This document shows positions 38,781-49,594 of a stretch of 64,000 nt of DNA, piece after piece. The notes under the pieces were generated by a model. That model worked only from the letters and a program-made list of their open reading frames with translations. It did no database searches and was not told where the DNA came from. The stretch is from Archangium lipolyticum (GTDB taxonomy: Bacteria; Myxococcota; Myxococcia; Myxococcales; Myxococcaceae), in contig NZ_JANKBZ010000013.1 in NCBI RefSeq assembly GCF_024623785.1, positions 186,001-250,000 on the forward strand, given 5' to 3'. Numbering within the stretch: position 1 is the first letter of the stretch; every line of letters starts with the position of its first letter. The position numbers were made by a program, and so were the translations under genes.

Positions 38781-39086
38781 AGAGGTTCGTAGGGTTTCCC
38801 GCTGTCCGCTCGTCTGCCCTGCCGAGAGGCAGGGGCCTCATTCCCGAGGAGAAACGGGCCCTTGGCGGAGTGCGCACTTCGTGGGGGGCCCGCTCGAGGC
38901 GGAGTGGGGGAGGGGGGCGGAGCGTCCCCGCAATCCTTGCGGACACCGGGGTCGCCGCGCGCAAGCTTCGCGAGCAGGGCATCCCAGGACTTGTTCCAAC
39001 TGGACTGGGCGCCTGCCCGTCACATCCAGCACACAGCCGCTCCTTCCGGGTGAAAAGAACCCACGAACCAAGGAAGGAGGTCTACC
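38781..39086. other. Intergenic stretch without a recognisable gene
   Basis: 306 bases between the IS3 remnant and the 68-aa gene. GC-rich, with open frames on both strands that look like composition noise. No repeat or hairpin is seen; a promoter for the 68-aa gene may lie near its end (GTGAAAAGAACC). Confidence 0.4.
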
Positions 39087-39293
39087 GTGAGCACGCTGGT
39101 TCCAAAGCCATGCAAGGATTTGCAGAACACGCTCATCGGGCTGGAGTCGGAGCGGGATGGCTTGCAGGAGATGTTACAAGGCGCCGCCACCACCTCGAAA
39201 GGAGGTCTGGTCGCACAGATCAGAAAGCTCAACAAACAGATCGAGAAGACCCAGAAGGCGTTGAACGCTTGTCTCGAGAAGCACCGGCCTTGA
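39087..39293 (+). CDS. Small coiled-coil protein, 68 residues
   Basis: It starts at a GTG with a near-perfect ribosome site (AAGGAGG, about seven bases upstream), which supports translation. The protein is alpha-helical: LQNTLIGLESERDGLQEMLQG and LVAQIRKLNKQIEKTQKAL have heptad spacing, so two short coiled-coil segments joined by a Gly/Thr loop are likely. No signal peptide. It has one Cys near each end (C9, C63). Function unknown; possibly an adaptor or a regulator of a larger coiled-coil partner. Confidence 0.7.
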   Translation: MSTLVPKPCKDLQNTLIGLESERDGLQEMLQGAATTSKGGLVAQIRKLNKQIEKTQKALNACLEKHRP

Positions 39294-39357
39294 TGAGGAT
39301 TCCGGGTCGTCGTGACCCATCCCTCCGGGCTCCTTTGAAATCAGAAGCTCTTTCGCT

Positions 39358-40053
39358 ATGGTCCGCTCGATGCGACAGACCGCCCTGGAGGCTGCGAAGG
39401 TGCTGCGCAGCTCACTCGTGCGCAACGGGCCCTCGCCTGCGACCTTCAGGGCGGCGCTGACCGGGATTCGCGCGGAGGACCGCGATGCCTGGCTGGACCT
39501 CCTGTGGGACATCGACGAGCTGCCCGAGGACGATCCCCTCCTCCCGCGCGGGTGCGTGCCGTACTTGCCTTGTCCCGTGGCAACGGTGCTCGAAGCCGTG
39601 CAGCAAGCCGCGGTGACGAGCGACGACGTTTTCGTGGACGTCGGATCTGGACTGGGACGGGCCGTCGTGCTGACGCACCTGCTCACGGGAGCCGGGTGCA
39701 TCGGCCTCGAGCTCCAGCCTGGACTGGTGCAGGCCGCACGCGGACGCGCGGCGTGGCTGAACCTGAGTCGCGTGCGCTTTGTCGAGGGCGACGCCGTGGA
39801 CCTGATCCGCTTCATCACCATCGGCACTGTTTTCTTCCTGTACTGTCCTTTCGGCCAAGACCGGCTCCAGCGCGTCCTCGACGACCTGGAACACACCGCG
39901 CGTACTCGGCCGATCCGGGTCTGTTGCGTCGGCCTCCCGCCCCTGGACCGCCCTTGGCTCGCTCCGGTCCCATCCACATCCGTGGACCTGGTCGTGTACC
40001 GGAGCACCCTGCACCAGGACCGACCCTCACCAACCCCCATCAAACTCCCATGA
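39358..40053 (+). CDS. Class I SAM-dependent methyltransferase-like protein
   Basis: 231 residues (another ATG is four codons inside). The SAM-binding motif I is VFVDVGSGLGRAV (91-103), followed by motif II-like GLELQPGLVQAARGRA and a motif III region FVEGDAVDLI, then FFLYCPFG at strand 4. This pattern resembles the DOT1-like/small-molecule methyltransferase fold. N-terminal 70 residues are helical and may bind the substrate, which is unknown. The gene stands alone. Confidence 0.8.
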   Translation: MVRSMRQTALEAAKVLRSSLVRNGPSPATFRAALTGIRAEDRDAWLDLLWDIDELPEDDPLLPRGCVPYLPCPVATVLEAVQQAAVTSDDVFVDVGSGLGRAVVLTHLLTGAGCIGLELQPGLVQAARGRAAWLNLSRVRFVEGDAVDLIRFITIGTVFFLYCPFGQDRLQRVLDDLEHTARTRPIRVCCVGLPPLDRPWLAPVPSTSVDLVVYRSTLHQDRPSPTPIKLP

Positions 40054-40221
40054 CCGGGTATCGGCTCGCCCCATCGGCCCCGGTTGACTTCGATTGAGCC
40101 GGGTTCGTGCTGCTTTCGACTCGCAGCGTGGCGGGTGAGAGATGACCCACGTGCGAAGGTCGAAGCGGTTCGCGACTATTCCTGGTATTTTAGGATCTGG
40201 AAATGTCGGGGTTATCTGTTA

Positions 40222-40236
40222 CAACAGTTACTGTTG
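40222..40236. promoter_or_regulatory. Inverted repeat upstream of the protease gene
   Basis: CAACAG-TTA-CTGTTG is a perfect 6-3-6 inverted repeat 41 bp before the protease ATG, inside an AT-rich run (40180-40260) that likely carries the promoter. Candidate operator; no regulator gene is adjacent. Confidence 0.45.
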
Positions 40237-40276
40237 CACTTACAACTTCCTCGATGATGGGAGATCGGGAACCCTG

Positions 40277-42247
40277 ATGAAGAACATCCGATTGGCGTGT
40301 CTCGCCGTGAGCCTCGCGTTCTGCGCCACCGCGCAGGCCGCGGCGCCGGAGAGCGAAGCGGTGTGCAAGGCGTCACCGGCGTCACAGAGCATCCGAAAGG
40401 TGGGCGAGGAGGTGGTGCGCCGCCTCGAGTCCCCGCACCCGTACGCCGCGGTGGAGCAGCGTGGCCTGAGGGGGATGCTCCACAAGGACACCATCACCCA
40501 CCCCGGGGCCTCATACATCGCCCCGCATTTCGCCACGCTCGAGCTCGAGGAAGGGGACTACGTCGTCGTCCGCTCACCGGATGGCTCGCGTTCCTGGCGC
40601 TATGACAACACGCACCCTCGCGCGCGAGATGGCTTCTGGGGCATCCACATCCCCGGAGACACCGCCATCATCGAGCTGCACAGCAAGGCGGTGGACCGCC
40701 GCGGTGTGCTCAACAAGTACGGCTACCGCATCGACAAGTACGCGCGCGGCTACGCGGCGCAGGAGCTGGGCACCGCCAGCTTCGAGACCGAGGCCCTGTG
40801 TGGCGCGGATGACTCCGGCTGGGCCCGCTGCTACGAGACCAGCGAGGCGCAGATCTACAACCACGCCCGGGCCGTGGCGCGCCTGCTCATCAACGGCACC
40901 AGCGCGTGCACCGGCTGGCTCGTGGGCAACCAGGGCCACCTGCTGACGAACAACCACTGCATCAGCGCGGCCGCGGATGCGCAGAACACCGATTACGAGT
41001 TCATGGCCGAGGGGACGACCTGCTCCACCAGCTGCGCCTCGTGGGGCGCCTGCCCGGGCACGGTGGTGGCCACCAGCGCCACGCTGATCAAGACGGATGC
41101 CCCCCGGGACTACACGCTGCTGCAGCTGCCCACCAACCCCACCGGCACCTACGGCTTCCTCCAGCTGCGCTCCACCGGCGCGGTGCTCGAGGAGCGCATC
41201 TACGTTCCCCAGCACCCGTCGGCGTACGGCAAGAAGATCGCCGTCACCTCCACCGCCGCGTCTGACGCCTCCGGCTACGCCGAGGTGTACAGCCTCGACG
41301 CGGCGGCCTGCCAGAGCGGCGGCCCCAATGACGTGGGCTACTACGCGGATACCCAGGGCGGCTCCTCGGGCTCGCCGGTGCTCGGCTACGCCGACCACCA
41401 GGTGGTGGCGCTGCACCACTGCGCCAACTGCCCCAACCGAGGCGTGCCCATCCAGTCGGTCATCAGCCACCTGGGCAGCAGCCTCCCGCAGTGCGCCATC
41501 CGCAGTGAGGCGTGCCCGGACCCGTGGGGCGCCAACGGCGAGCCGCCTCCGCCGCCGCCTCCTCCTCCCCCGCCTCCCGCCGAGTCCTTCACCTACACTG
41601 CCAGCAACACCAACAGCGCCCAGCAGAACACGGTGAACCAGAACATCACCGTCAAGGAGGGTGACGTGGTGGAGGTGGGCACCTGCAACCTCACCGGCGC
41701 CACCGCCTCCGGTGACACCTACCTGCGCCTGTTCGATGGCTCGAGCGTCCAGGCCGCCTCCAACGACGACTCCTGTGGCGGCAACTCGTCCTACCTCAAG
41801 TACACCGTGCCCGCGGGCAAGGGCGGCACCTACGCGATTCGCGCCGGCTGCTACTCGAGCGGCTCCTGCGGCGGCACCGTGGTGTGGAAGATCACCCCGG
41901 GGACGACCCAGCCGCCTCCCAATCCCACGTCCGGCTCGTTCAACTTCAGCGCCAGCGACACCCAGAGCGCCACCCGCAACACCACCAACTACGACGTGAC
42001 GGTGGCCGCGGGACAGACGCTCAAGCTCGGCACCTGCACCGTGGCGGGCTCCTCCGGCACCGGTGACACGTACCTGCGGCTCTTCACCGCCGCCGGCGCC
42101 GAGGTGGGCTCCAACGACGATTCGTGCAGCAGGCTTTCGTACCTGAGCTACACCGTCCCGGCGGGCGCGGGCGGCAAGTACCAGATCCGCGCCGGGTGCT
42201 ACTCCACCGGTAGCTGCAGCGGCACGGTGGCCTACACCATCCAGTAG
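40277..42247 (+). CDS. Secreted trypsin-like serine protease with two PPC domains
   Basis: 656 residues from the ATG at 40277. Signal peptide (LAVSLAFCATAQAA), a propeptide-like region to about 190, then a chymotrypsin-fold protease with the triad H227 (TNNHCIS), D278 (RDYTLLQL) and S364 (GGSSGSP), and several Cys pairs. This is the lysyl endopeptidase (Achromobacter protease I) type. A poly-Pro linker leads to two similar bacterial pre-peptidase C-terminal domains (GDTYLRLFDG.. and GDTYLRLFTA..), each ending in a strand with paired Cys. Likely a secreted degrader of prey proteins. A strong terminator follows. Confidence 0.88.
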   Translation: MKNIRLACLAVSLAFCATAQAAAPESEAVCKASPASQSIRKVGEEVVRRLESPHPYAAVEQRGLRGMLHKDTITHPGASYIAPHFATLELEEGDYVVVRSPDGSRSWRYDNTHPRARDGFWGIHIPGDTAIIELHSKAVDRRGVLNKYGYRIDKYARGYAAQELGTASFETEALCGADDSGWARCYETSEAQIYNHARAVARLLINGTSACTGWLVGNQGHLLTNNHCISAAADAQNTDYEFMAEGTTCSTSCASWGACPGTVVATSATLIKTDAPRDYTLLQLPTNPTGTYGFLQLRSTGAVLEERIYVPQHPSAYGKKIAVTSTAASDASGYAEVYSLDAAACQSGGPNDVGYYADTQGGSSGSPVLGYADHQVVALHHCANCPNRGVPIQSVISHLGSSLPQCAIRSEACPDPWGANGEPPPPPPPPPPPPAESFTYTASNTNSAQQNTVNQNITVKEGDVVEVGTCNLTGATASGDTYLRLFDGSSVQAASNDDSCGGNSSYLKYTVPAGKGGTYAIRAGCYSSGSCGGTVVWKITPGTTQPPPNPTSGSFNFSASDTQSATRNTTNYDVTVAAGQTLKLGTCTVAGSSGTGDTYLRLFTAAGAEVGSNDDSCSRLSYLSYTVPAGAGGKYQIRAGCYSTGSCSGTVAYTIQ

Positions 42248-42273
42248 GCCCTCCGCGCTTCGTGGTTCTCATG

Positions 42274-42308
42274 ACGGCGGCCCTCTTTCCGGGGGCCGCC
42301 GTTCTTTC
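42274..42308 (+). terminator. Rho-independent terminator after the protease gene
   Basis: ACGGCGGCCC and GGGCCGCCGT form a perfect 10-bp stem with a 9-base loop, followed by TCTTTC, 27 bases after the protease stop. Confidence 0.85.
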
Positions 42309-42435
42309 GTCGAGAGGACCCCATGTCAGCCTCAGGGTGTCGAGGAGCCAGTCGAGTCACGACGAAGTGACTTGGCTCCGCATGGCGGAAGTGCTTGCCT
42401 CCGCTGTTTCCTTCACCTTGGAAAGGTTCTCCTCC

Positions 42436-42861
42436 ATGCGGAACATCCTCGCGGCGTCTGTGTCCCTCCTCTCACTCTCCCTGCTCGGCTCCGTGGCCTG
42501 TGGTGGCACGGTTTCCGAGCAGGCCCAGGTGCTGTCGGAGCAGAAGCAGGGCCTGAATGCCGTGGGCACCGGCTGCTCCTCCGACGCGCAGTGTTCGACG
42601 GGGCTGTGCTGGACCGTGGAGGACTCGTATCCCCTCTACAACCCGGCGTGGATCAGCGCCGACAGCTGCACCGAGGAGTGCGGTGGCCCTGGTGACAACG
42701 CGTACTGCCAGCAGCTCGCTGCGGAGTTCAACGCCCCGAATCCCGGTGCGGCGCGATGCATCACCGCCCGGGGCGTCTATGACAACAACCCGTACGACCA
42801 CATGGTCTACGTGTGCGACCTGATCCCCGCTGGTCTGGGCAAGGTCCACTGGGTCGAGTAG
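42436..42861 (+). CDS. Small Cys-rich lipoprotein
   Basis: 141 residues from the ATG at 42436, after a run of open frame that has no start context. A signal peptide with lipobox GSVAC (about residue 22) is followed by CGGTVSEQ and then a cysteine-rich stretch (GTGCSSDAQCSTGLCW, DSCTEECGG, YCQQL, RCITARG, YVCDLI). About ten Cys suggest several disulfides in a small surface domain. This is a typical myxobacterial outer-membrane lipoprotein of unknown function. Confidence 0.72.
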   Translation: MRNILAASVSLLSLSLLGSVACGGTVSEQAQVLSEQKQGLNAVGTGCSSDAQCSTGLCWTVEDSYPLYNPAWISADSCTEECGGPGDNAYCQQLAAEFNAPNPGAARCITARGVYDNNPYDHMVYVCDLIPAGLGKVHWVE

Positions 42862-42899
42862 TCACGCGCGCGCGGACGGTGCGCATGGCCAGGCGGGGA

Positions 42900-43448
42900 C
42901 TACTGGCCAGCCGGAGTGCCCTGGGGCCGCGAGGTCCCGGGCGCGGGCGTGGGCTTCACGTCGGTGTTCTGACCCGCGACGATCTCCCACCGCTTGCCGT
43001 TCTTCTTCATCACGTAGCGCATGCGGGTCTTCAGCACGCCGGCCTCCGTGGGCTGTACGCCGGGAGGCAGCCCGGCATACCCGGTCACCACGTGCTCCAT
43101 GTCCGTCACCGCCACGTCGCCACCGAGGAAGCGCACTCCGGTCACCGTCACCTGGGTCCGGCTGCCCTTGAAGAGTTTGTCGAAGACGAAGGCGTGCCGC
43201 GTCTCGATCTCCGCCCGGCCCTTGAAGACCGTTCCGACGATGTTGATGAACTCGGCATCCGGAGCGAAGTCCTTGCTCCATGCGGCCGCGTCCGAGCGGT
43301 TCCAGGCCTCGGTCTGATCCGCCACCAGCTTGCGGATGGCGGCCTCATCCGCGCCCCGCGCCTTGGCCGACTCGGCGGTGGCTGGCGGCACGAGCACGAA
43401 CGTCAGGGCCACGGCCGCGGTCGTCATGAGATGGAAGAAGGCTTTCAT
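42900..43448 (-). CDS. SnoaL-like (SgcJ/EcaC, DUF4440) secreted protein
   Basis: 182 residues from the ATG at 43448, with AGGAGA upstream. A signal peptide (MTTAAVALTFVLVPPATAES) precedes the cystatin-like alpha+beta fold: IRKLVADQTEAWNRSDAAAWSKDFAPDAEFINIVG and RHAFVFDKLFKGS are the SgcJ signature, followed by strands VTVTGVRFLGGDVAVTDMEHV and KTRMRYVMKKNGKRWEIVAGQNT. The family binds small ligands or acts as an isomerase or dehydratase; no activity can be assigned. The export signal is unusual but seen in some relatives. Confidence 0.82.
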   Translation of the reverse strand: MKAFFHLMTTAAVALTFVLVPPATAESAKARGADEAAIRKLVADQTEAWNRSDAAAWSKDFAPDAEFINIVGTVFKGRAEIETRHAFVFDKLFKGSRTQVTVTGVRFLGGDVAVTDMEHVVTGYAGLPPGVQPTEAGVLKTRMRYVMKKNGKRWEIVAGQNTDVKPTPAPGTSRPQGTPAGQ

Positions 43449-43518
43449 GTGGAATCTCCTGGATGGAATGGGGTGAGCAAAGCACGGGGAGCGCGTTTCC
43501 TGGAGCGCTTCCGTCCGC

Positions 43519-44754
43519 TTACGGTCCGCCGGCAGCGTCATCGGAGGACGCTGGCGCGGCGGCCAGGTGACGCTCCTCGATGCGGGAGCCCGCCGCGAAC
43601 GCGATCAACCCCGTGCCGAGGATGGCCATGGTCCATGACAGCGACCACTCGGCGAGCAGCCCGATGAGGGGGTTGATCACCACGATCGCCAGGGTGCGCA
43701 CCATCGAGACGAAGGAGAGCACCGTGGCCCGCTGGTTGGACGGGATGTGGTGATTGATGTAGGCGCTGAAGAGGGGGATGCGCGGCAGGCTGAAGGTGAA
43801 GCCCAGGATGATCCCCACGATGACGAGTGGGGTCCACCGCGTGGCCCCGAGCATGAGGAAGCTCACCCCGGCGAGGACGGTGGCCCCGAGCAGGAGCCTC
43901 CTCATCGAGCCGATCCACCGCTCGATTCGCGCCACGTTGCCGAGGAAGAGGATCTGCCCGACGCACGAGAGGGCATGCACCACGCCGAAGAAGCGGAGGG
44001 GCACCCCACTGCGCTCGAGCAGCGGCTGGAACAACCAGATGAGCCCCCAGGCCAGCGCGTTGGTCAGGGCCAGCTCGATGGCGAGCAGCCGGACGACCTT
44101 GTGGCCGAGGAAGTACCGGCCTCCCTGGGTGAGGATCCGCACGTAGCCGGTCCGGGTCCGCCGCTCCTGGCTGGACGTGGGAGGCTCGCGCAGGGTGAGC
44201 GCGAGCAGGAAGGCGAGGGTGGCAGGGAGGACATAGGCCCGCATGGGAGCGCTCAGGCCGAAGGCGCTCGCGATGAAGCCCCCGATGAGCGTCGCGGTGA
44301 TGATGCCGCCGAGCTTGAAGGACTCCATGCGGCCGAGGACGTGCGCCGCCCGCTCCGTGTGCCCGGTGGCCTTGAGGCTGTCATAGGCGAGCGCCTCGTC
44401 CGCGCCGGAGTGGAGCGTGTAGGCGATGGCGAAGACGGCCTCGGCGGCCATGAACACGGGGAAGGCGGGCCGGGACACGTAGAGCAGCGCGGCGCCGATG
44501 GCCACCAGGCTGCCCAGGGCGAGCGACACCTTGCGGCCCAGGTAGTCCGCCACGGTGCCGGTGGGGACCTCGAAGAGGAAGTTGCAGAGGAAGAACCAAG
44601 CGTTGAGGTACAGCACCTGCGCCAGGGAGATGCCGCCCCAGTCCGTGAAGAACGGCACGAGGACCGCGGAGAAGAACTGCATGTAGAACAGCAGCCGGAT
44701 GGCCTGGAGCTTCCAGATGTTGGAGCCCAGGCGAGCGTCCGAGTCGGTCGGCAT
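43519..44754 (-). CDS. Major facilitator superfamily transporter
   Basis: 411 residues from the ATG at 44754; an upstream in-frame ATG (near 44793) overlaps the divergent gene and lacks a ribosome site. Twelve hydrophobic helices. The MFS motif A region is VPTGTVADYLGRKVSLALG between helices 2 and 3, with a partly conserved repeat in the C-terminal half. It belongs to the drug-efflux-like group; substrate unknown. Divergent from a small lipoprotein gene 45 bp away. Confidence 0.87.
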   Translation of the reverse strand: MPTDSDARLGSNIWKLQAIRLLFYMQFFSAVLVPFFTDWGGISLAQVLYLNAWFFLCNFLFEVPTGTVADYLGRKVSLALGSLVAIGAALLYVSRPAFPVFMAAEAVFAIAYTLHSGADEALAYDSLKATGHTERAAHVLGRMESFKLGGIITATLIGGFIASAFGLSAPMRAYVLPATLAFLLALTLREPPTSSQERRTRTGYVRILTQGGRYFLGHKVVRLLAIELALTNALAWGLIWLFQPLLERSGVPLRFFGVVHALSCVGQILFLGNVARIERWIGSMRRLLLGATVLAGVSFLMLGATRWTPLVIVGIILGFTFSLPRIPLFSAYINHHIPSNQRATVLSFVSMVRTLAIVVINPLIGLLAEWSLSWTMAILGTGLIAFAAGSRIEERHLAAAPASSDDAAGGP

Positions 44755-44799
44755 GGGCGCGCATTCTGCATCCGCCCGGGTTGGTGGCACCATGGGCTC

Positions 44800-45366
44800 A
44801 TGACTCGGAAGCTGTTGATGTTGTGGGTGTCCCTCTCGCTCGTCGCCTGTGCCCGGTCCACGGCCTCCCAGCGCGACGACGCGCCGGTGAACATGGAGCT
44901 CAAGTCCTCGCTGTCGGTGCTGCTCGACCACCGGAGCGAGCTGGCCCTCGACGAGGACCAGGTGAAGCGGTTCGGGGAGATGGAGCTCACCCTGCACGAG
45001 AAGAACGTGTTGCTCCAGCAGCGGCTCGAGGAGCTGCGCGCCCAGCACAAGGTGGCCGAGAAGTCCTGGCACGGAGGCTACAAGGGCGGCGGCACCCATG
45101 ACGTCTATGGCGGGAGGGGCGGAAGCTCGACCGCGCCGGGGGAGGCGGAGGATCAGCAACGGCGCGCGAGGAGCCAGCGGCTGGAGCAGATGCAGTCCAC
45201 GCTGCGCGAGATGCAGGACAACGACACGCGGGCCTATCTCGAGGCGGAGACGCTGCTGCGCGAGGAGCAGAAGCCCCGGGCCCGCGAGCTCTTCTCCCAG
45301 GAGCGCGAGAAGCTGTTCAAGCGGGTGGAGGCGATGATCCTCCAGGTCCGGCGCAAGGGCTTCTGA
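44800..45366 (+). CDS. Coiled-coil lipoprotein
   Basis: 188 residues. Lipobox SLVACAR (Cys17). The mature protein is mostly helical with charged heptads (DQVKRFGEMELTLHEKNVLLQQRLEELRAQHK and SQRLEQMQSTLREMQDND), interrupted by a Gly/Ser-rich loop (GGYKGGGTHDVYGGRGGSS, about 88-108). It resembles periplasmic helical chaperone-like proteins of the Spy/CpxP type in style, but the LTxxQ motifs are not present. Function unknown. Confidence 0.72.
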   Translation: MTRKLLMLWVSLSLVACARSTASQRDDAPVNMELKSSLSVLLDHRSELALDEDQVKRFGEMELTLHEKNVLLQQRLEELRAQHKVAEKSWHGGYKGGGTHDVYGGRGGSSTAPGEAEDQQRRARSQRLEQMQSTLREMQDNDTRAYLEAETLLREEQKPRARELFSQEREKLFKRVEAMILQVRRKGF

Positions 45367-45378
45367 GCCGGGTCCTCT

Positions 45379-47178
45379 TCAGGTCGAGGCGTGGTGGAGC
45401 CACAGGTTGCGCGTCGCGACCTGGGGCCGCGCGGAGAGGTCCGCGATGCGCTGTCCCGGAGGGAAGGGCCGGTTGAACGGGTAGCCCGGCTCGGGATCCA
45501 ACTCCGGGTCGGTGAGCAGCACCATCAACCGCACGAGCAGGCCCTCGTGCCGGCCGCGAGGCAGCAGCAGGTGGGCGGGCCAGCCGCGCTCGTGCACCAC
45601 GGAGGACAGCCGCGAGGGCCGGTGGATGACCTCCCGCCGCGAGGGCCCCAGCGTGTGGGCGAACCTGTCCAGCTCCATCCACATCCGGCGATCCTCGGCG
45701 AACGCGTCCGCCGCGAGGTAGATGCGCACCGTCACCGTCTGCTCGCGGGGCAGCGGGTTCTCCACCCGGAAGAAGTAGTGGAACGGGTCGTGATCGAGGT
45801 GCGGCTTGAGGAGCTCCCGTCCGTCCGGGAGCCGCACCGGTTGCCGTGCCATGTGGGTGCGCAGCGTGTGCGTCGTCACGGAGAAGGCCGGAGGAGGGCT
45901 GTCCCAGTTCTCGCCGCCGAACAGGGCCTCGCCCCAACGCTGTCCGTCGAAGTCCGGTGCTGTGGCGCCGGGGATGTCCCGGTGCATGCACAGGAGGATG
46001 TCCGGGCTCTGGTGCGCCGGAGCCGTTCCATCGCCGAGCCACTTGCGCATCCGCACCTGGGGCGCGTCGGACAGGTCGTGCGGTGGCAGGTGGGCGCTCT
46101 GCCACGCGTCGAGGATGTCGTTCACGTGGCGGTGCCAGCGGTAGAAGAGCGGATCCCTCGCCGCGGTGGCCGGGGAGGCCATGACCCCGGGAAGGCCCGT
46201 CCTGTCCCGGGGGCCCGTCAGGCACGCGAGGAGCACGTGCCCCAGGTGGTGGTGTGAGCCGTAGGGGCCGAGCGGATCCGCCCAGGCCTCGCCATCCACG
46301 GAGCCCCTGTTGGACTCGGCCGTGTCGGCGAGCTGCTCGAGGCTGTCGAGGAGGATGGGCGAGTCCCCGTGCCACAGCAGCCCCGAGGAGGCCGCGGTGA
46401 AGAGCCGGTCGCGGCGCGTGGCGTGATCCGTGATGCCGTAGCCGGGGATTCCCCTCGGGCTCAGGCCCGGAGGCCGGGGCGCGAAGCCCGGGAGCTGCGG
46501 GTCATAGCCCTCGTTGATGGGGGAGGCGTAGTCGCTCAGGGGGACGACGCGGGGCATGCCGAACGCCAGCCGCTCCGTGTCGTAACGGGCCAGCAGCTGC
46601 TGGTGCGTGTACCAGAACAGCTCGCCGCGCCGGTCCGGGAGGAGGCGGCGCTGAGGGTTCGTGGGATCCGGGTATCCGGCCGCCGGGTGATGCGCGTGCC
46701 ACGTGTCGATGTGGTCGTTGAGCCCGGTGTCCTCGCGGAAGTAGTCGAGCCAGACCTCCGCGCCGGGGGTGCCAGGGTTTCCCTTCCGGGGCAGCTCCTG
46801 GCGTTGCGAGGGCACCACCAGCCGCGGAGCGCGCTCCTGCAAGGGGGGCACGGACAGCACGCGGCCCTCGGGGTGGTGGGCGATGAAGACGCGCAGCGCG
46901 TACTTCACCCACTCGGCGTCTCCCTGCCGCGCCTGCTGCTCGGCCTCGTCGAGTACCGCCGACAGTCCCGCCTCTCCGGGCCGGGCATTGGCCAGCTCCA
47001 TGAAGCGGGCCGCCAGGGACACCGCCTGCTCCTGGTGGGAAGGCAGGAAGGGGAGGAAGCGCTGGCCGGGGGAGGGGGGCACCAACGGCGCGAGCTCCCC
47101 TCGGGGTGTCATCGGCAGCGGAGGAAGCGGGGACTCCCGACACAGCAGGGCCCGGGCCCGGGCGTGCAGCTCCACCAT
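45379..47178 (-). CDS. Arthropod-type hemocyanin/prophenoloxidase homologue
   Basis: 599 residues, no signal peptide; GGAGGAGG precedes the ATG at 47178. The middle domain matches prophenoloxidase: DYFREDTGLNDHIDTWHAHHP, DRRGELFWYTHQQLLARYDTER (CuA side) and PYGSHHHLGHVLLACLTG plus RDPLFYRWHRHVNDIL (CuB side). CuB ligands H310, H314 and H349 and CuA ligands H161 and H192 are in place; the first CuA His is one position off (H156, with I157 at the usual site). The C-terminal domain (MWMELDRFAHTLGPSRREVI) is the hemocyanin-C pattern. It may be a cytoplasmic phenol oxidase, an oxygen carrier or a storage-like protein. It follows YebC by 22 bp. Confidence 0.85.
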   Translation of the reverse strand: MVELHARARALLCRESPLPPLPMTPRGELAPLVPPSPGQRFLPFLPSHQEQAVSLAARFMELANARPGEAGLSAVLDEAEQQARQGDAEWVKYALRVFIAHHPEGRVLSVPPLQERAPRLVVPSQRQELPRKGNPGTPGAEVWLDYFREDTGLNDHIDTWHAHHPAAGYPDPTNPQRRLLPDRRGELFWYTHQQLLARYDTERLAFGMPRVVPLSDYASPINEGYDPQLPGFAPRPPGLSPRGIPGYGITDHATRRDRLFTAASSGLLWHGDSPILLDSLEQLADTAESNRGSVDGEAWADPLGPYGSHHHLGHVLLACLTGPRDRTGLPGVMASPATAARDPLFYRWHRHVNDILDAWQSAHLPPHDLSDAPQVRMRKWLGDGTAPAHQSPDILLCMHRDIPGATAPDFDGQRWGEALFGGENWDSPPPAFSVTTHTLRTHMARQPVRLPDGRELLKPHLDHDPFHYFFRVENPLPREQTVTVRIYLAADAFAEDRRMWMELDRFAHTLGPSRREVIHRPSRLSSVVHERGWPAHLLLPRGRHEGLLVRLMVLLTDPELDPEPGYPFNRPFPPGQRIADLSARPQVATRNLWLHHAST

Positions 47179-47200
47179 CAACCTCCTCCGGCCACGGGCC

Positions 47201-47902
47201 TCACTTCAGGCCGACGTAGATGTTCTGGACGTCGTCGTCCTCGTCCATGGCCTCGAGGAACGACTCGACCTCGCTCCGGGCCTCACCCTCGAGGTGCACC
47301 GGGTTCTTGGCGATCCACGCGAGGTTCTGCGAGCTCACCGTCCAGCCCATCCCCGTCAGGGCCCGGCTCACCGTGTCGAGGTCCGTCGCGGCGGTGAGGA
47401 AGCGGGTGGCGCCCTCCTCGGCGGCCTCCAGGTCCTGCGCGCCCGCCTCGATGGCGGCGGCCTCGGCATCGGCACCGCCCTCGGGAGGCGTGGCCTCGAT
47501 GACGCCCAGGCGGTTGAAGTCCCACGACACCGCGCCGCTGGTGGCGATCTGCCCCTTGCGGAAGAGCACCCGGATGTTGGTGGCGGTGCGGTTCTTGTTC
47601 TCGGTGAGGCACTCGACGATGACCGGCACCTGGTGCGGGGCGAAGCCCTCGTAGGTGACGAGCTCGTAGTTCACCGGCTCATCCAGCAGCCCGGCGCCCT
47701 TCTTGATGGCGCGCTCGAGCGTGTCGCGCGGCATCGACGCCTTCTTCGCCTGCTCGACGGCCATGCGCAGCCGCGGGTTGGTGGAGGGGTCGGCTCCCCC
47801 CGCCTTGGCGGACACGATGAGTTCCTTGACCAGCTTGGTGAAGAGCCGGCCCTTCGCGGCCGCATGCTCGGTGCGGCCCTTGTGTTTCCACTGCGCGCCC
47901 AT
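47201..47902 (-). CDS. yebC: YebC/PmpR-family protein
   Basis: 233 residues with the family N-terminus ([10 protein letters not shown], ..[19 protein letters not shown]), [28 protein letters not shown], the central [26 protein letters not shown] and the C-terminal [17 protein letters not shown]-type ending. The first residues ([10 protein letters not shown], not MAGHSKW) mark the second subgroup. Members act as transcription regulators or help ribosomes through difficult sequences. It is followed after 22 bp by the hemocyanin-like gene, so it may be cotranscribed; a link in function is speculative. Confidence 0.9.
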
Positions 47903-47997
47903 GGTGTGCGCTCCTACCTCATTCGGGGTCCGGGTTCACACGATTTCGACCGGGACGGGGCCTGGCAGCCGGGCCCCGGGAGGAGCGGCCGGGCGGC

Positions 47998-48495
47998 TCA
48001 GAACGTGATGTCGTCGTTCACGATCTCCGAGTCCCACTGCCACAGGCCATCGCGCAGCTTGTACCGGACGATCCGGACGTTCAGCACCCCGTCATGATCC
48101 AGATCGCTCTTGGCGGTCACCTCCAGGACGTCGTCCTGCGGCTTGGTGACGTCATAGGTGTAGTAGAGGAGGCCATCGGGCTGCCAGCCCAGCGTCGCCC
48201 ACCCGGGCAACGTCTTGTCGAAGGGCTTCTTGGTGCCGTACTCCGTGCCCGCGGGGTTCTGCGCCAGGCTCGTCAGTCCACCCGGCAACGAGTTGTGGAC
48301 CGACCAGTACTCGGACACCGTGCGGATGAGCGAGGTGATCATCGCATCCCGCTCGGCCCGCTTCGTGCGCATCTGGAAGCTCTGCATCTGCGGAATGGCC
48401 ACGGAGGCCAACAGGCCGATGATGCCGACGACGATCATCAGCTCGATCAGGGTGAAGCCCTGGTGCTTGCGGCGGTGAAGCGTCGGGTGAGCCAT
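47998..48495 (-). CDS. Type IV pilin-like protein (prepilin)
   Basis: 165 residues. The prepilin signal is clear: HRRKHQG-FTLIELMIVVGIIGLLASVAIPQ, cleavage after G13, Glu5 of the mature protein at E18. The C-terminal head has only charged and strand-like segments (DDVLEVTAKSDLDHDGVLNVRIV) and lacks the Cys pair of typical pilins. It may be a minor pilin or pseudopilin processed by PilD. It lies 49 bp after the gene for a membrane protein in the same direction, and the pair may be an operon. Confidence 0.85.
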   Translation of the reverse strand: MAHPTLHRRKHQGFTLIELMIVVGIIGLLASVAIPQMQSFQMRTKRAERDAMITSLIRTVSEYWSVHNSLPGGLTSLAQNPAGTEYGTKKPFDKTLPGWATLGWQPDGLLYYTYDVTKPQDDVLEVTAKSDLDHDGVLNVRIVRYKLRDGLWQWDSEIVNDDITF

Positions 48496-48544
48496 GACAT
48501 ACCCCCTTGAAGGGTGGAAGGCGTGGTGAAGAGGTGCGGGTGGG

Positions 48545-49459
48545 TCAGGGGCTGCCAGTGTCGGCGGTGGCCGGAGCTTTCGGCGCGGGACTGAGCAGCC
48601 AGGTTCCCGGATCCAGCTCCTTCACCTCCAGACCCTTGGCCTTCTGTTGCTCGAGCCACGCCCGCAGCTCTGGAGAGGCCGGGCCCACGAGCGTCGAGCG
48701 CACCACCTGGGTGCCGGTCTTCGCATCGGTGGTGATGAGCGTGTTGTTCGGCGCGCCCGTCTGGTTGGACGGCTGGCTCCTGGGCATGCTGGTGAAGTGG
48801 TACGCGCCCACCGCGAGCATCACCACGGCCAGGGCGGAGATCTGAAGGAGCTGCACCTTCTTCCTGCGACTGGCCTGCTCCTGACTCTCCGTATCGAACG
48901 ACACCTTGCCGGTGGCGGCGGGTTTGTGGTGCGCCACGGGAGCGGGGGCGGGGGGCTCCGGCTGGTTTGACGCCGCCTTCACGTCACTGGAGAAGTCGAC
49001 GGCCTCCTGGGTCAGCGTCTCCCAGGTGCGATCGATGGCGAGCCCCAGCTCTGGCGTGGAGGGGGTCGCCGCCCGGAGCGTCTCCAGGGAATGGTCCACC
49101 TCGGCCAGCAGCGCGTTGAGCGCCTCGGAGTCCACCTTGCCCCCAGCCGTCAGCAGCAGATCCCTCGCCGCCGCCAGGCGCCAGCGCGCCACGAGCGCCT
49201 CGCGCAGCGCGTCGGCCTGGCCATCCACCAGGAGGGCCTCGCGCTCGGGCTGGGTGAGCTTCTCCAGGAGCTTGCGGGCTCCGGGCAGCGACACCGCCAA
49301 CGACAGCCTTCCGCGCAGCACCTCCAGCGCCTGGGCTTGCGAGGGCACGTTGCCGGGCCACATCGCCGGTTGCTCCCGTTTCCTGGGGGCGGGGGCCTGC
49401 GCGGCGACCGCGCTCTCATCCGGGGTCGAGGGAAGTTGGGGATCCTGATCGTTTGACAT
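48545..49459 (-). CDS. Membrane protein of unknown function, partner of the pilin-like gene
   Basis: 304 residues. The cytoplasmic N-terminal part (1-205) is Pro/Ala-rich and helical (QALEVLRGRLSLAVSLPGARKLLEKL, RWRLAAARDLLLTAGGKV). One membrane helix (LLQISALAVVMLAVGAYHF) lies at about 206-226, followed by a periplasmic domain of about 75 residues ending in LVGPASPELRAWLEQQKAKGLEVKELDPGTWLLSP. No known family recognised. The arrangement (single-pass, upstream of a pilin) suggests a role in pilus or secretion assembly; this is inference. Confidence 0.62.
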   Translation of the reverse strand: MSNDQDPQLPSTPDESAVAAQAPAPRKREQPAMWPGNVPSQAQALEVLRGRLSLAVSLPGARKLLEKLTQPEREALLVDGQADALREALVARWRLAAARDLLLTAGGKVDSEALNALLAEVDHSLETLRAATPSTPELGLAIDRTWETLTQEAVDFSSDVKAASNQPEPPAPAPVAHHKPAATGKVSFDTESQEQASRRKKVQLLQISALAVVMLAVGAYHFTSMPRSQPSNQTGAPNNTLITTDAKTGTQVVRSTLVGPASPELRAWLEQQKAKGLEVKELDPGTWLLSPAPKAPATADTGSP

Positions 49460-49594
49460 GGGCCACGCGGGTTGACGAGTGCTCCCATCATCCGATCGGT
49501 GGGGGCCTCAATACAATCGGCTCTCGGAGCGCGTTGTCCGCGTGGATGTTTGCAGTTGCAACGGAGCCACGATCTACCCGAGAGGACGAAAGAA

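Follow-up and report, generated by a model that had tools for sequence, protein, structure and literature searches.

A prophenoloxidase-like gene of Archangium lipolyticum and its relatives in bacteria: an apparently dismantled CuA half-site in a conserved hemocyanin-type protein

The window considered here is a stretch of 64,000 nucleotides from the soil bacterium Archangium lipolyticum (contig NZ_JANKBZ010000013.1, positions 186,001 to 250,000). A gene of the hemocyanin superfamily lies on its minus strand, and its 599-aa product is referred to below as the window protein. The features of the locus are as follows.

45379..47178, minus strand: hemocyanin-superfamily gene, 599 aa plus stop, start ATG at 47178; backed by Pfam, phmmer, purifying selection and homologues
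46114..46761, minus strand: Hemocyanin_M (copper-domain) stretch, residues ~140-355; Pfam PF00372, 109.1 bits for a cut-off of 20.8, E 2.9e-31
45595..45804, minus strand: Hemocyanin_C best-scoring stretch, residues ~459-528; Pfam PF03723, 47.2 bits for a cut-off of 26.4, E 2.3e-12
47201..47902, minus strand: yebC paralogue, directly upstream; TACO1/YebC domains; adjacent in 10/11 genomes

The open frame spans 45379-47181, with AGGAGG just 5' of the ATG at 47178 and an in-frame TTG at 47181 as alternative start. The yebC frame ends at 47201, leaving a gap of 22 bp before the hemocyanin-type gene, and its domains confirm the YebC-family neighbour named in the preliminary description. In eight of the ten yebC-linked genomes, a GTG of the hemocyanin frame overlaps the yebC stop, which suggests that translation may be coupled. 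In MAG G008, the hemocyanin-type gene is located elsewhere, not beside yebC. Of the three yebC paralogues in the Archangium genome, the copy next to the hemocyanin-type gene is well conserved in the family. Within 1.5 kb downstream of the yebC counterpart, the hemocyanin gene was found in none of eight genomes (L049-L056, from G008, G012 and G018-G023; 62-86% identity).

Further neighbours in the window include a pilin-like gene, a polyphosphate kinase, an MFS gene and a small LTXXQ-type protein, none of which hints at a substrate. A trypsin-like protease at 40142-42247, which has a weak PPC-domain match, was discarded as a partner because it is unmatched in the 10 neighbourhoods compared (reaching 2.8-10 kb on that side). 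A defence context was likewise rejected for the window: when six neighbours and the window protein were searched, the sole match was an ORF at 39358, weak at 26.5 bits, which we read as methyltransferase-like. Rfam returned nothing within 39000-53000 of the window.

Both hemocyanin profiles, for the copper domain and the C-terminal domain, exceed their curated cut-offs, and the window protein is thus assigned by its sequence, and by descent, to the arthropod-type hemocyanin/prophenoloxidase superfamily. The Pfam Tyrosinase profile reaches 26.1 bits (E 1.3e-5) on residues 291-362 only, against 109.1 bits for Hemocyanin_M, and the identity of a classical tyrosinase is rejected. The preliminary description had preferred the arthropod-type family to the short bacterial tyrosinases and had named a better tyrosinase-profile match as counter-evidence; no such match was seen, and its assignment stands. 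The top PDB relative in phmmer is the scorpion hemocyanin 3ixv (E 3.2e-53), followed by Limulus hemocyanin and insect phenoloxidases, then by the fungal AsqI at E 5.2e-21. Of the three hemocyanin profiles put forward in that description, M and C matched above their cut-offs, but the N-terminal domain had no Pfam match in the window protein at E<=1; this domain is suggested by phmmer from residue 37 (Limulus chains) and by Foldseek on a low-confidence model. NCBIfam contained nothing matching the window protein at E<=1. The translation, judged by eye, contains no signal-peptide-like N-terminus, again as first described.

The AlphaFold model was built from a six-sequence alignment (pLDDT 56.1, pTM 0.57). 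All 46 Foldseek matches at E<=0.001 belong to the hemocyanin superfamily and cover 642-697 columns, at an rmsd of 9-12 Å for a model of pLDDT 56; hexamerins are among the matches of this low-confidence model. CuA ligands 1-2 and CuB ligands 1-2 fall in model stretches with pLDDT <50, and the copper sites are discussed below from alignments. These include 15 proteins, namely 11 from myxobacteria and those of Rhizobium, Flavobacterium and two Chloroflexota; a frame-disrupted Rhizobium copy (L022) was excluded. The positions concerned are given below, with their state in the 11 myxobacterial members.

47047..47049, minus strand: codon 44 (Phe), aligned with the beta-subclass placeholder Phe; F 6/11, Y 1/11, S 3/11, A 1/11
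46708..46710, minus strand: codon 157 (Ile), position of CuA ligand 1, lost; non-His in 11/11
46696..46698, minus strand: codon 161 (His), CuA ligand 2; His in 3/11
46603..46605, minus strand: codon 192 (His), CuA ligand 3; His in 8/11
46249..46251, minus strand: codon 310 (His), CuB ligand 1; His in 11/11
46237..46239, minus strand: codon 314 (His), CuB ligand 2; His 6/11, Gln 4/11, Glu 1/11
46132..46134, minus strand: codon 349 (His), CuB ligand 3; His in 11/11

In the window protein, the CuB triad of a type-3 copper site is complete (H310, H314, H349) and CuA retains H161 and H192, as had been noted, with I157 in place of the third histidine. The CuA ligand 1 position is occupied by I, L or V in ten myxobacterial proteins and by Y in one. 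Given this absence across all 11 members, the near-complete two-copper protein implied by the preliminary description is not supported. Its mark of at least five of the six ligands is, by count, just reached by the window protein, which has five, as have two relatives (G003, G004), but the other eight myxobacterial members keep 2-4 and fall short.

The same description had proposed that the first CuA ligand is shifted by one residue, to H156. In a gap-free local alignment, H156 faces the first His of the N-E-H-H-x-H-W-H stretch of the four intact bacterial proteins and I157 the second, and the arthropod chains from the PDB carry the same HH pair. The second His of this pair is the one that we take to be the ligand, by the arthropod H-x3-H spacing. 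A ligand shift to H156 is ruled out by the alignment, in which I157 holds the ligand place, and the H156 position is Y, A or M in five of the 11 myxobacterial members. Read from these alignments, H156 is the non-ligand first His of an ancestral HH pair, and CuA ligand 1 has been lost rather than shifted.

The four non-myxobacterial homologues, from Rhizobium, Flavobacterium and two Chloroflexota, all keep the six ligand His and four Cys. The latter sit in two C-terminal motifs, CxCGWP or CxCGYP, and CGSxSFCG; their four columns hold Cys in 4/4 intact bacterial proteins and in 0/11 myxobacterial ones. These are presumably disulphide-bridge cysteines, and the two disulphides of arthropod hemocyanin and prophenoloxidase would thus be missing from the window protein. 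The Glu three residues before GVM in arthropod chains, presumably the catalytic base in prophenoloxidase, is absent by eye from all 15 bacterial proteins, including the intact ones.

The intact homologues belong to Rhizobium indicum (WP_138333714.1, on a plasmid), Flavobacterium sp. SUN052 and two Chloroflexota records (L024, L033). They align with the window protein over near full length at 27-40% identity, L033 being the nearest, and score 247-357 bits against one another. Comparison of the proteins of L033 and Rhizobium with the top-scoring chelicerate hemocyanins gives 222-262 bits, so that the split between bacterial and animal forms is almost as deep as the splits among the bacterial forms. 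The intact bacterial proteins also have the arthropod Cys motifs, as in the PDB arthropod chains. According to Table 1 of a survey of type-3 copper proteins (PMC3658974, in part), two disulphide bridges occur in arthropod but not in fungal beta-subclass proteins.

A protease is fused to, or lies near, three of the four intact homologues (in one case by motif only), and a defence-type MBL-fold gene neighbours two of the four, in one case near Shedu. On the Rhizobium indicum plasmid pPR13E04, an S8 peptidase, an LmuA-like MBL-fold gene and the intact phenoloxidase-like gene follow in a row (L021:8267-13767). This plasmid is typed as conjugative, and the row lies ~1.2 kb from a Shedu SduA gene (459 bits), in an island with two kinase genes that have defence-library matches and a PP2C gene nearby; its MBL-fold protein matches PADLOC LmuA at 148 bits. 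In a second Rhizobium indicum strain, the phenoloxidase-like gene of plasmid pPR12A203 is frame-disrupted (L022:7956-9766). In Flavobacterium, an HExxH-motif protein precedes an MBL-fold gene (LmuA, 60.6 bits) and then the phenoloxidase-like gene; by this motif, we read the HExxH protein as a probable protease, and it had neither a Pfam nor a PADLOC match. A Chloroflexota MAG combines a subtilase, a complete copper domain and a C-domain in one 1158-aa frame (L024:1-3477) that runs open at the contig 5' end. In the other Chloroflexota record, a stand-alone 121-aa ORF (L033:164-529), 13 bp after the phenoloxidase gene, resembles part of the N-domain (50% identity over 66 residues, E 8e-12). A weak HEPN match lies near that phenoloxidase gene, and no profile-supported protease was found among the ORFs scanned on this 7.2 kb contig. 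There is little similarity between the S8 peptidase of Rhizobium and that of Chloroflexota (E 0.003), the MBL proteins of Rhizobium and Flavobacterium are distant (E 3e-4), and no PADLOC model matched the window protein or the phenoloxidase of Rhizobium.

Bacterial members are rare and patchy in the genomes sampled. A homologue occurs in 9 of 59 relatives' genomes, the own genome counted, and a search of 195 Myxococcota genomes detected PF00372 in 11, which all belong to three genera of a single family; this is the myxobacterial survey that had been suggested. The profile was also found in 2/400 genomes of the phylum Chloroflexota and 1/29 of the class of G414, as well as in 1/395 genomes of the class and 1/296 of the order to which the Flavobacterium record belongs; the four samples share genomes and, besides G414, the matches are genomes already found. 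A contig scan with the alignment reduced 44 pattern matches to six relatives, namely three Archangium, Flavobacterium sp. SUN052, a Chloroflexota MAG and L028; the last has no PF00372 match, matches the Tyrosinase profile instead and was excluded from family counts. Two Rhizobium indicum records came from the plasmid scan, one with the gene frame-disrupted. Viral contigs gave no pattern match with the single protein and 28 with the alignment, none being a relative, and no relative was found in phages. As the contig scan requires exact peptide patterns, it misses relatives, and the rarity figures describe the genomes sampled, not absence elsewhere. Both Chloroflexota proteins come from short contigs (4.1 and 7.2 kb) that may be in the wrong bin.

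In the tree, the 11 myxobacterial proteins form one group (support 100/100), to which the intact Chloroflexota L033 is nearest at 90/92, below the tree tool's mark of firm support; the outgroup and outer branches are long and uncertain in their order, and the tree has midpoint rooting only. The open-access literature, in titles and opening abstracts among the matches listed, contained no report of an arthropod-type hemocyanin or prophenoloxidase in bacteria. In the sections seen of a broad survey, the bacterial genomes examined had only secreted alpha-subclass type-3 copper proteins, and the origin of the arthropod-type beta-subclass was placed on the unikont stem (PMC3658974). Beta-subclass proteins, intact or degenerate, in records of Myxococcota, Pseudomonadota, Bacteroidota and Chloroflexota reopen the question of an ancient bacterial origin versus transfer.

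The hemocyanin-type gene is under purifying selection. The matched frames are without internal stop in 11/11 genomes, and dN/dS ranges from 0.05 to 0.14 (YN00) or from 0.15 to 0.52 (NG86) for the 8 of 55 possible pairs that were calculated. These values, well below 1, together with the open frames and the yebC linkage in 10/11 genomes, make a decaying pseudogene extremely improbable, even though active-site losses vary between species. At the level of sites, ligands were compared with 90 non-ligand control columns that show no variation among the four intact proteins and no gap among the 11 myxobacterial ones; of these columns, 54 are kept in all 11 myxobacterial proteins and nine in none. At site A, 11 of 33 cells are kept (random control triples as low, P 0.038) and there are more distinct residues than in control columns (P 0.004); relaxation at this site is backed moderately by these counts and strongly by chemistry. 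Site B, with 28 of 33 cells kept, is indistinguishable from control columns (P 0.63), so a metal at site B is not demonstrated; the change from H to Q, which takes one base in the codons, was counted against such a metal. The Archangium clade offers a natural series of copper-site dismantling under selection.

Taken together, the window protein is probably a cytosolic hemocyanin-fold protein derived from a bacterial prophenoloxidase-like two-copper ancestor, its CuA half-site dismantled, and kept for a non-redox role, either as an enzyme or in binding a ligand, with no more than a single metal at site B. Starting from an ancestor with a complete two-copper site, the Archangium lineage would have dismantled CuA (ligand 1 in 11/11 members, the others in some) and lost the C-terminal cysteines as well. 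With this half-site gone, dioxygen could no longer be bound between two coppers; given the loss of ligand 1 and the losses in sister species, peroxo-dicopper chemistry is unlikely. The protein would have been retained, most likely as a non-redox enzyme or ligand binder working through the former substrate pocket; H310, H/Q/E314 and H349 would hold one metal at most. AsqI is a repurposed hemocyanin fold that acts as a zinc Lewis-acid cyclopenase with site A only, as described in parts of PMC6053404. In view of this precedent, we favour a non-redox role for the pocket. Site B might hold a single metal, in an arrangement that would be approximately the mirror image of the fungal one; the single metal and the nature of the reaction are a guess. 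Against this explanation, only one ligand of the six is missing from the window protein and from two relatives, so that these three might still take up two metals, and the neighbouring enzymes of the window locus give no substrate clue.

That two metals are indeed loaded, and that the window species has a working two-copper phenoloxidase or oxygen binder in which H156 or a solvent ligand replaces the lost His, is very improbable. The five ligands and the placeholder Phe would fit such a protein, but H156 appears to be the ancestral non-ligand His, replaced in five of the 11 members; it lies five residues from H161, not four, which would place the two on different sides of a helix, and most members have too few ligands left. 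At the other extreme, a metal-free structural or storage protein, similar to insect hexamerins or crustacean pseudohemocyanins, with the fold kept for oligomers or amino-acid storage, is doubtful. The ligand loss parallels that of hexamerins, which are without copper-binding sites according to the part of PMC4092376 consulted, and hexamerins were seen among the structural matches. However, F+Y makes up 5.5% of the window protein and 5.3-6.7% across the 11, compared with 6.0-7.6% in the four intact proteins, so that a storage protein is unsupported by composition; in addition, two site-B His are kept in 11/11 and no secretion signal was seen by inspection.

The protease and MBL-fold neighbours of the intact homologues could also point to a non-catalytic partner or decoy, remaining from a conflict system of intact phenoloxidase, protease and metallo-beta-lactamase-fold effector; this is quite improbable, as the Archangium locus, with its yebC, pilin-like and polyphosphate kinase genes, has no such neighbours. 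A broader and unlikely reading is that bacteria own a protease-linked prophenoloxidase immunity module, either as a subtilase fusion or with a protease and an MBL-fold effector nearby, once in a Shedu island on a conjugative plasmid. This would echo insects, and the Archangium protein would be a derived relative that abandoned two-copper chemistry and now works with a single metal or with none. In insects, prophenoloxidase is the zymogen form, which serine proteases cleave (PMC4092376, in part), and the parallel between this activation and the bacterial protease linkage may be called suggestive only. With the protease-linked intact relatives, the idea of a bacterial prophenoloxidase system can be put to the test.

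Among known systems, the classical bacterial tyrosinases (alpha-subclass, PF00264) are matched by the CuB region of the window protein at 26 bits, whereas the protein is longer and multi-domain, has a different CuA motif and reaches 109 bits with Hemocyanin_M. PvdP is, as we take it, an enzyme of Pseudomonas aeruginosa; no molecule of that name is among the best 25 PDB sequences for the window protein, two relatives and the family profile. A review (PMC11608171, in part) describes the bacterial tyrosinase PvdP as sharing some architecture with insect enzymes. Insect hexamerins and arylphorins have the same fold without a type-3 centre and, unlike these aromatic-rich, copper-free proteins, the window protein is not enriched in aromatic residues and keeps site-B His.

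The closest likeness in animals is to arthropod hemocyanin and prophenoloxidase, with which the window protein shares the predicted fold (by sequence and a weak model), the CuB triad, the placeholder Phe and the motifs RED, LARYD.ER and RDP.FYRWH. Window residue F44 aligns in phmmer with Limulus residue 49, which we take to be the beta-subclass placeholder Phe. This Phe and the absence of a signal peptide, common to both by inspection, are two traits of the beta-subclass in the portion seen of PMC3658974. The window protein differs in its bacterial host and in having neither CuA ligand 1 nor the cysteines of the C-terminal motifs, whereas the intact bacterial homologues keep six His and four Cys. 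Finally, AsqI, the zinc cyclopenase of Aspergillus nidulans (5yy2/5yy3), belongs to the same superfamily, has lost half of the binuclear site and was repurposed. Its metal is held by the His triad of site A, which in the window protein is without ligand 1; thus, AsqI keeps site A and lost B, whereas the window protein lost A.
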